NCBI GenBank assembly: GCA_943788505.1
Contig: CALSQR010000002.1
Coordinates: 124,001-188,000, forward strand
Direction: 5' to 3'
DNA: 64,000 nt
From: an uncultured bacterium
Lineage (GTDB): Bacteria; Bacteroidota; Rhodothermia; Rhodothermales; UBA10348
Shown here: positions 2,962 to 4,818 of the stretch, in pieces
Position numbering within the stretch: the first letter of the stretch is position 1
Layout: the number at the start of each line of letters is the position of its first letter
The notes under the pieces: generated by a model
Told to the model about the DNA's origin: nothing
Databases searched by the model: none
Seen by the model: the letters and a program-made list of their open reading frames with translations, nothing else
Translations under genes and position numbers: made by a program

Positions 2962-3035
2962 GCGCTTGTAGCTCAGTTGGATAGAGCGTTGGTTTCCGGT
3001 ACCAAAGGCCGGGGGTTCGAATCCTCCCAAGCGCG
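2962..3035 (+). tRNA. tRNA-Arg (anticodon CCG)
   Basis: A full cloverleaf can be folded. The acceptor stem is GCGCTTG (2962-2968) with CAAGCGC (3028-3034). The D stem is GCTC/GAGC, and the anticodon stem TTGGT/ACCAA holds loop TTCCGGT, with anticodon CCG at 2996-2998. The T arm is GGGGG-TTCGAAT-CCTCC with one G-U pair. The 3' CCA is not encoded. CCG reads the arginine codon CGG. A strong terminator follows 20 bases later, so it is a single-gene unit. Confidence 0.95.
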
Positions 3036-3054
3036 CAACGGCTTTCGCCGATCA

Positions 3055-3103
3055 ACCGTCTGTCGATCTAATCCCGAAGGATTGCATCGCCAGGCGGTTT
3101 TTT
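3055..3103 (+). terminator. Intrinsic terminator of the tRNA-Arg unit
   Basis: ACCGTCTG (3055-3062) pairs with CAGGCGGT (3091-3098), extended inside by CGAT/ATCG and AATCC/GGATT around a CGAA loop. A run of six T follows immediately (3098-3103). It is oriented to end transcription of the tRNA. Confidence 0.85.
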
Positions 3104-3118
3104 AATGCGGTAACCTTA

Positions 3119-3416
3119 TCCAAGAACACATATGCGTCCAGCCGGATAATGCGCATTCTTGGTTCGCAGCCGCAAGGCTGCATCCAAGAGCAAGGCAGGA
3201 TTGATCCACGACGGCTTCTGAAACAGGAGCCACACCCGAACGAAGTGATTCTCGGGTGGGGAGACCTTGGTAAGGCATACCCACCCGTGAGGGGGAGGCC
3301 AGATCGCAAGGGGCCGATCTGGCCAGAGAGGAGGTTCACCGCGTTCGAGGGAGTGAGGCGGATTCAGTCAATGAACTGTCCTGCCCCTTTCCATAATGAT
3401 GCCAGAAAATACCGAA
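3119..3416 (+). ncRNA. Candidate structured RNA of unknown family
   Basis: This stretch holds an exceptional density of helices and no credible protein. Visible helices are GCAGCC-GCAA-GGCTGC (3166-3181) inside TCTTGG/CCAAGA; a long-range helix GGCAGGATTGA (3194-3204) with TCAA (3368-3371) and TCCTGCC (3379-3385); GGCTTCTG-AAA-CAGGAGCC (3213-3231); CCTT-GGT-AAGG (3265-3275); and GGCCAGATCG (3297-3306) with CGATCTGGCC (3315-3324). Mutually exclusive pairings exist: CACCCGA 3233-3239 with TCGGGTG 3252-3258, or CGGGTGGG 3253-3260 with CCCACCCG 3280-3287. An intrinsic terminator follows. I could not match RNase P RNA, tmRNA, SRP RNA, 6S or 5S landmarks. Ends and strand are inferred. Confidence 0.6.
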
Positions 3417-3461
3417 GCCCTCGAATCAACCTGAAATAGCCGATTCGAGGGCTCTAATTTG
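3417..3461 (+). terminator. Intrinsic terminator after the structured RNA
   Basis: A perfect 11-bp stem, GCCCTCGAATC (3417-3427) with GATTCGAGGGC (3442-3452), is followed by TCTAATTT. The T-richness suits plus-strand transcription better than minus, though it may also stop gltP transcription arriving from the other side. The 5' arm can pair instead with TTCGAGGG at 3344-3351 inside the RNA candidate, an antiterminator-like option. Confidence 0.7.
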
Positions 3462-3516
3462 TACGACGTCTCATCTTAGGACGAGATCAGTCTGAGACCG
3501 GATCAATACGAGACAC

Positions 3517-4818
3517 TCAAGCAGGGACGGGAGCCGTCTTGAATTCTCCCTCAGATGCAGCCACAACGGTAGCAACTGTCGCATCCCCTGTCACATTCGT
3601 GACGGTACGGCACATGTCAAGGATTCGGTCCACACCCAGAATAAGAGCGATTCCAGCCGATGGAACTCCTACTGATTCCAGAATGATGACCAGCATGATG
3701 ATCCCGGCTCCTGGAACAGCCGCCGTGCCGATGGAGGCCAACACAGCAGTGAAGACGATCGTGAGCTGAGCGGTCAAGTCCAGATCCATTCCAATCGTCT
3801 GTGCGATGAACACTGCAGCTACCGCTTGATATAGACCCGTTCCATCCATGTTAATGGTCGCACCAAGTGGTAGAACAAACGAGGAGACTTCCTCACTCAC
3901 ACCAAGCTCTTTTTCGACACGCTCCATCGTGACCGGTAGTGTCGCGCCACTCGAGGACGTTGAAAAGGCTACGAGCTGTGCAGGTGCAAGAGCCCGAGCA
4001 ACTTCTCCCCATGTCTTTGGGGTAAAAAATTTGATCATTGACCCATAGGTCAAAAACATATGTACGATTAGGCCGGCAAGTACAACCAGACAGTAGTATC
4101 CGAGCGCTGTAATCAACTCCATTATCTGCCCTAAATCATCGCCCGCAATACTGGTGATCGTATCTGCCATCAGGGCAAAGACTCCGATAGGGGCAAACAA
4201 CATGATGATTTCAACCATGCGGATCACCAGATCATTGAGACTTTCAAATAAGTCGAGCAGTGGCTTGGATTTGTCTTTGGGGATCATCAAAAGACCGATT
4301 CCCGCAAAAATGGCGAAGAAAACGATCTGGAGCATGTTCCGATTACTAGAAGCCGCCTCAAAAAAGTTGCCTGGGACCATATCCACCAATGGTTGGATAG
4401 GACTCTTTTCCGCTCTAGAAGCTGCAGTTTCAACACCTGCTTGGGCCTGATCGGCAAACGTCATTTGCAGTTTTTCCCGCATTTCGTCAGGTACCGTTGC
4501 ACCTGGCTGGAAGAGGTTGACCAGAACGAGCCCAATGATCAGAGCTATGACCGTGGTTCCTATGTAGATCGCGATCGTTTTCCCCCCAATCCGCGACAGT
4601 TTCTTTAAATCTGACAATGATGCCACACCTGTAATGAGAGACGCGAGAACCAGCGGCACGGCAATCAAAAGAAGGAGTCGTAGGAAGATCTGGCCCCAAG
4701 GAGCAATCCAGTCAGATGTGAAACCACTCCAGCCCTGTGCGGCGGCTAATATGCCGAACAAAAGACCCAGAACGAGTCCGATGATGATCTGCCAGTGGAG
4801 TTTGCGGTACCAGGGCAT
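3517..4818 (-). CDS. gltP: Dicarboxylate/amino acid:cation symporter (DAACS family)
   Basis: A 433-residue inner-membrane transporter that takes up C4-dicarboxylates or acidic amino acids with protons or sodium. It shows the two hallmark re-entrant loop motifs, the Ser-rich SSSGATLPVT and LGATINMDGTGLYQ, plus the membrane pattern and length of the GltP/DctA/GltPh family. Start ATG 4816-4818 gives a typical N-terminus (MPWYRKLHWQIIIGLVLG). It lies 141 bases after the DUF5683-like gene on the same strand and faces the structured-RNA terminator. The substrate cannot be fixed from sequence. Confidence 0.93.
   Translation of the reverse strand: MPWYRKLHWQIIIGLVLGLLFGILAAAQGWSGFTSDWIAPWGQIFLRLLLLIAVPLVLASLITGVASLSDLKKLSRIGGKTIAIYIGTTVIALIIGLVLVNLFQPGATVPDEMREKLQMTFADQAQAGVETAASRAEKSPIQPLVDMVPGNFFEAASSNRNMLQIVFFAIFAGIGLLMIPKDKSKPLLDLFESLNDLVIRMVEIIMLFAPIGVFALMADTITSIAGDDLGQIMELITALGYYCLVVLAGLIVHMFLTYGSMIKFFTPKTWGEVARALAPAQLVAFSTSSSGATLPVTMERVEKELGVSEEVSSFVLPLGATINMDGTGLYQAVAAVFIAQTIGMDLDLTAQLTIVFTAVLASIGTAAVPGAGIIMLVIILESVGVPSAGIALILGVDRILDMCRTVTNVTGDATVATVVAASEGEFKTAPVPA

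Follow-up and report, generated by a model that had tools for sequence, protein, structure and literature searches.

The DNA analyzed here, referred to below as the window, is a 64,000-nt stretch of a contig from an uncultured bacterium of the order Rhodothermales. A tRNA-Arg(CCG) gene, detected by ARAGORN and Rfam on the plus strand (2962..3036), is followed by its own terminator (3086..3103; CGCCAGGCG then TTTTTT), which was recovered in a terminator scan. This tRNA is a constant neighbor at nearly all homologous loci, and similar hairpins follow it in most of the homologues. The tRNA is flanked, away from the element, by a minus-strand gene of the sigma-70 family containing regions 2 and 4 (2028-2855); the gene facing the tRNA across the element is gltP (3517..4818, minus strand), which encodes a sodium:dicarboxylate symporter (PF00375). 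A hairpin at 3415..3454 was scored by the terminator scan on the minus strand and is attributed to gltP; it stands upstream of the element described below when that strand is read. Paired GTCTCA and GAGAC sites (3468..3514, strand not assigned), a probable operator, are situated between gltP and the element.

The region between the tRNA-Arg terminator and gltP is exceptionally rich in complementary strands. Within positions 3104-3461, there were 18 perfect complementary 7-mers against a mean of 4.4 in dinucleotide shuffles, and 10 perfect 8-mers against 1.2. Folding of this segment surpassed 100 of 100 shuffles on either strand, with z-scores of -5.4 (plus) and -7.4 (minus). All of the complementary strands named in the original prediction were located at their positions: the long-range pairing of 3194-3204 with 3368-3371 and 3379-3385, the helix between 3253-3260 and 3280-3287 together with its alternative between 3252-3258 and 3233-3239, the TTCTTGG at 3156-3162 with CCAAGA(A) on both flanks, and the pairing of 3344-3351 with the terminator arm at 3418-3425. 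The switch-like logic of an attenuator or riboswitch that had been read into these alternatives is not supported. The 8-nt partner in the terminator-capture pairing (TTCGAGGG/CCCTCGAA) was present in the window only, the longest complement in the homologues being 6 nt or shorter and, in most of them, below 5 nt, while the alternative pairings at 3157 and 3233-3287 fall outside the conserved core, in a part specific to the window. Nor does the setting favor an attenuator or riboswitch: the capture helix is not conserved, and on neither reading does a same-strand gene come next before tRNA-Arg is reached.

Searches with Rfam covariance models in the window and five homologous loci returned only tRNA matches, the best other score falling far short of the threshold (E = 1.9). 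The search of the region itself on both strands, which the original prediction had proposed as a check, gave zero family matches, whether the gathering score was required or the cutoff was relaxed to E = 1. RNase P, 6S, tmRNA, and SRP RNA were rejected as identities in the absence of any Rfam match, with the RNase P RNA located elsewhere in the genome, and no riboswitch model in Rfam scored above its gathering threshold. A literature search on Rhodothermota small RNAs (sRNAs) or sRNAs with GAGGG hairpins found nothing relevant.

The usual setting of the element is between tRNA-Arg(CCG) and, mostly, a convergent gltP. A DNA search of 60 relatives detected the 3′ portion of this region in five further relatives, all with tRNA-Arg(CCG) adjoining. 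A covariance model combined with a pattern search identified the element in 15 of the 27 genomes of the window's family, and reading downstream of tRNA-Arg in the remaining family genomes added members in g2, g7, g8, and g10, along with a doubtful member in g9. Synteny thus raises the total to 22/27, and a second, sequence-only model likewise retrieved 22/27 genomes at E below 1e-6. Two genomes of the same genus, G003 and G004, lack the element, with only a short gap between the tRNA and gltP, indicating that it is dispensable. At these two loci (L089 and L088, respectively), the end of gltP lies almost directly after the tRNA terminator, and the element was lost. The locus of G015 (L091) carries two copies of a repeat, GGTTCGTGACGAGCGGCTGCGAAGCAGACGCGACTCACGAGCC, inserted beside the element, probably a mobile repeat. 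Beyond the family, the most conserved part of the element, box1, was also found in families f2 and f11, roughly 90-170 nt past tRNA-Arg, and the sigma-factor-like gene beyond the tRNA keeps its place in f1, f2, f5, f6, and f11. A pattern scan for homologues outside the order gave only extra matches unlike the homologues. Three matches to the pattern CAAKGAACTG..RTGCCA (L036, L051, and L054) appeared by eye to be threonyl-tRNA synthetase codons for KPMNCPHH and were taken as coincidence. Other motif clusters in the family genomes were also set aside, since those inspected lay in or overlapped long open frames or had no conserved end. With helices above chance, a conserved site, changing stems that still pair, and no Rfam match, the original claim of a structured RNA of no known family held up, and we consider it highly likely that a conserved RNA element exists at this locus.

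The conserved core is most readily described on the minus strand, where, from 3404 leftwards, box1 is followed by hairpin P3, a small hairpin (H1) with a CUCCCUC loop, the C/U-rich GUGAACCUCCUCU, and hairpin P2. Box1 (3390..3404; TGGCATCATTATGGA, consensus TTTGGCAYNNTNTTNGNNA) marks the start of the element and could be either a promoter or the 5′ end of the RNA. P3 (3361..3383) has the conserved loop GUUCAUUG, equivalent to box2, CAGTTCATTG, at 3369-3378 when read on the plus strand. The H1 loop (3347..3353) belongs to the conserved core, and its stem covaries in alignment A3. The C/U-rich stretch (3327..3339), the proposed seed, is similar to the 16S rRNA terminus that carries the anti-Shine-Dalgarno, and P2 (GGCCAGAUCG/CGAUCUGGCC; 3324-3297) is terminator-like in g6 relatives, although not clearly so in the window. 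The proposed sRNA core, measured from box1 through P2, spans 108 nt in the window (3297..3404), and 14 homologues representing four genera keep it at 105-118 nt despite their divergent sequences. The P3 stem differs in sequence across species with its pairing kept (combined p of about 2e-5, kinship ignored); for the stem of the window alone, p was 0.27. Of 23 homologues, 17 have a CCTCC within the first 140 nt when read on the minus strand. Additional hairpins and CCCUC motifs (3105..3296, minus strand) may extend the RNA at its 3′ end by an uncertain length, and longer arrays are found in homologues.

The strand assignment is supported by several concordant lines of evidence. Among strong hairpins with at least 7 Watson-Crick pairs across the homologues, mismatches read on the plus strand comprised 18 A·C against 5 G·U, an A·C on the plus strand being a G·U on the minus strand. 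With the g10 members left out and a six-pair minimum, the ratio was 19 A·C to 4 G·T, compared with 94:92 in shuffles, although these counts are small and the homologues share ancestry. As a control, the same script applied to the sense strand of E. coli 16S and 23S rRNA yielded an excess of G·T over A·C. A T-rich tract follows P2, on the minus strand only, in four or five relatives (TTTTTT at best), as seen in the g6 members G011 (TTTTTTGT), G017 (AATTTTCT), G024 (CATTTTAG), and G026 (TTCTTTCG), and the terminator scan gave P2 of L018 a positive score. The genus of the window has no U-tract after P2, which is thus only a tentative 3′ end of the RNA there. Most members also had better fold z-scores when read on the minus strand, but these scores were given less weight and not used alone for strand assignment, on account of a purine bias in the plus strand that makes its shuffles fold better. 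Collectively, these features make it probable that the element is read from the minus strand. The structure originally placed on the plus strand is thus real, with a minus-strand fold at least as strong, whereas its assignment to a plus-strand RNA is disfavored by the wobble pairs, U-tracts, and fold scores. The hairpin at 3415-3454, which had been taken as the terminator of such an RNA, was assigned by the scan to the opposite strand as the gltP terminator, and the suggestion of a gltP antisense RNA also falls, given that the minus strand is gltP's own.

An RNA on the plus strand, produced by read-through from tRNA-Arg or from its own promoter and ending with the conserved AUGAUGCCA, would nevertheless fit the recurrence of the element behind tRNA-Arg in three families, loci where gltP has been replaced included, and some f2 members seem, by eye, to lack a clear tRNA terminator ahead of the element. 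This alternative is unlikely, considering the direction of the wobbles, the U-tracts, and the fold z-scores, as well as the scoring of its supposed terminator on the opposite strand.

In the genomes searched, box1 is almost confined to this locus, and a role as a general promoter was rejected for that reason. A sigma-54 promoter was dismissed by eye, its spacing being too short by one base and its -12 box lacking GC; no promoter was recognized at box1. The right arm of P3 abuts box1, which makes P3 compatible with a box1 promoter only if transcription starts there. In 13 of 15 g1/g3/g5/g6 loci, GTCTCA is positioned 62-64 nt from box1, with no conservation of the DNA between them, and this fixed spacing suggests an operator and promoter arrangement. 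The g7 and g8 members have more copies of the GTCTCA/GAGAC sites, which look like the binding sites of a regulator.

The location of the element directly downstream of gltP on the same strand could also be taken to indicate a 3′ untranslated region, that is, a processed or structured mRNA end that stabilizes the gltP mRNA or releases a 3′-UTR-derived sRNA. We regard this as very unlikely, as a terminator-like hairpin separates gltP from the element, and box1 is kept in f2, where the neighboring gene was found by tblastn not to be gltP. The gene facing tRNA-Arg in these f2 loci (L061-L065) is a different one, also on the minus strand, whose product looks by eye as if it may be TPR-like.

A further property of the locus is the repetition of a short loop motif. 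GAGGG on the plus strand, corresponding to CCCUC in the proposed RNA, occurs 69 times in total over the 23 sequences, where shuffles predict about 17, and the top enriched plus-strand word was TGAGGG (27 versus 2.4). The complement of GAGGG was not enriched on the plus strand in most members. Many motif copies reside in the loops of separate hairpins in g2, g7, and g8, with copy numbers of up to 8 in g2 and g7, while g3 and g10 members have 0-1 copies. GGA showed no enrichment over shuffles in any homologue. A profile search for CsrA (PF02599) gave no match in 27/27 family genomes, with matches obtained in control genomes, and Hfq (PF17209) was likewise absent from 27/27; one RRM protein is encoded in 23 of the 27.

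Such arrays could act as a protein sponge, in which repeated hairpins titrate a regulatory RNA-binding protein through a loop of CCCUC (minus strand) or GAGGG (plus strand). This is the main rival to base pairing; the growth in copy number in g2 and g7, the placement of the motifs in loops with changing stems, and the frequency of the RRM protein speak for it. We nonetheless consider a sponge rather improbable: CsrA is absent, GGA itself is not enriched, the leaders of RRM genes almost never carry the motif, and the near absence of copies in g3 and g10 indicates that the arrays are not part of the core. A CsrA decoy was rejected for the first two of these reasons, and autoregulation of the RRM gene for the third.

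The explanation we favor, to which we assign a probability of about one half, is that the locus would encode a minus-strand sRNA whose C-rich seeds pair with mRNAs. We favor it because Hfq and CsrA are absent, an RRM protein is common, Bacteroides offers a precedent, and the C/U-rich stretch is anti-Shine-Dalgarno-like. Bacteroides species reportedly lack Hfq, ProQ, and CsrA and use RRM and KH proteins (PMC12119571), and RbpB works with sRNAs in this genus (PMC11697453). In the model that we infer, covering strand, promoter, mRNA pairing, and regulation, an sRNA with a core of about 110 nt would occupy the minus strand of the gap from the gltP terminator to tRNA-Arg. It would probably start at or just after box1 (3404) from a promoter in or near box1, with transcription probably controlled by a regulator at the GTCTCA/GAGAC sites a fixed distance upstream. 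The transcript would form P3 with its GUUCAUUG loop, continue through the C/U-rich CUCCCUCGA...GUGAACCUCCUCU, and end at P2, which together with the T-rich tract has the look of an intrinsic terminator in several g6 relatives. Its C-rich loops and CCUCC would most likely pair with purine-rich mRNA sequences (GAGGG and GGAGG), blocking or opening ribosome-binding regions with no need for Hfq, and in some lineages the arrays of CCCUC-loop hairpins may represent one binding surface offered many times.

The prospective targets were assessed in 975 genes from about 1.26 Mb, or 46% of the window's own genome. The C/U-rich stretch had six matches of 9 nt or more to translation starts among these genes, about the chance expectation. 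AGGAGG precedes 11/975 genes, and few genes use a Shine-Dalgarno sequence, while Bacteroidia ribosomes have been reported not to recognize it (PMC9976891). One of the few strong Shine-Dalgarno sites, AGAGGAGGTAGCTTATG near C2:416650, precedes a gene resembling outer membrane receptors and has a 9-nt match to the proposed seed, within chance. A different possibility is that the RNA mimics the 3′ end of 16S rRNA through its single-stranded ACCUCCU and CCCUC-loop arrays in a host where Shine-Dalgarno use is rare, either pairing in trans with the few Shine-Dalgarno mRNAs or titrating factors that hold the anti-Shine-Dalgarno; we hold this to be quite unlikely.

Returning to the favored base-pairing sRNA, we infer from sequence comparison that the locus represents a new, undescribed, and lineage-specific sRNA family belonging to a single lineage of Rhodothermales-like bacteria. 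Post-transcriptional regulation in bacteria without Hfq and CsrA is poorly understood, and this locus provides a concrete entry point. An RNA that keeps its synteny, spacings, and core while one loop motif multiplies in particular lineages could offer a clear test of C-rich-loop RNAs where Shine-Dalgarno pairing is little used.

Several known systems share features with this RNA. RNAIII and the Rsa RNAs of Staphylococcus aureus present C-rich loops or single strands (UCCC/CCUCC) suited to pairing with Shine-Dalgarno regions, and C-rich-loop sRNAs of this species can act without Hfq. The proposed RNA has similar C-rich hairpin loops and single strands; however, no sequence relation to the S. 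aureus RNAs was found, and its host rarely uses Shine-Dalgarno sequences. The CsrB/RsmZ decoy RNAs consist of a variable number of hairpins repeating one short loop motif, an arrangement also found here, but the motif at this locus is CCCUC/GAGGG, GGA, as in the ANGGA loops of such decoys, is not enriched, and the family lacks CsrA. In Bacteroides thetaiotaomicron, the FopS/GibS sRNAs work with RbpB (PMC11697453). They resemble the present case in acting in a Bacteroidota lineage for which the absence of Hfq, ProQ, and CsrA has been described (PMC12119571), an RRM protein being encoded in the present family as well, whereas FopS is multicopy with a single-stranded 5′ seed, in contrast to the one locus per genome, the different structure, and the absence of an Rfam match that characterize the element described here.
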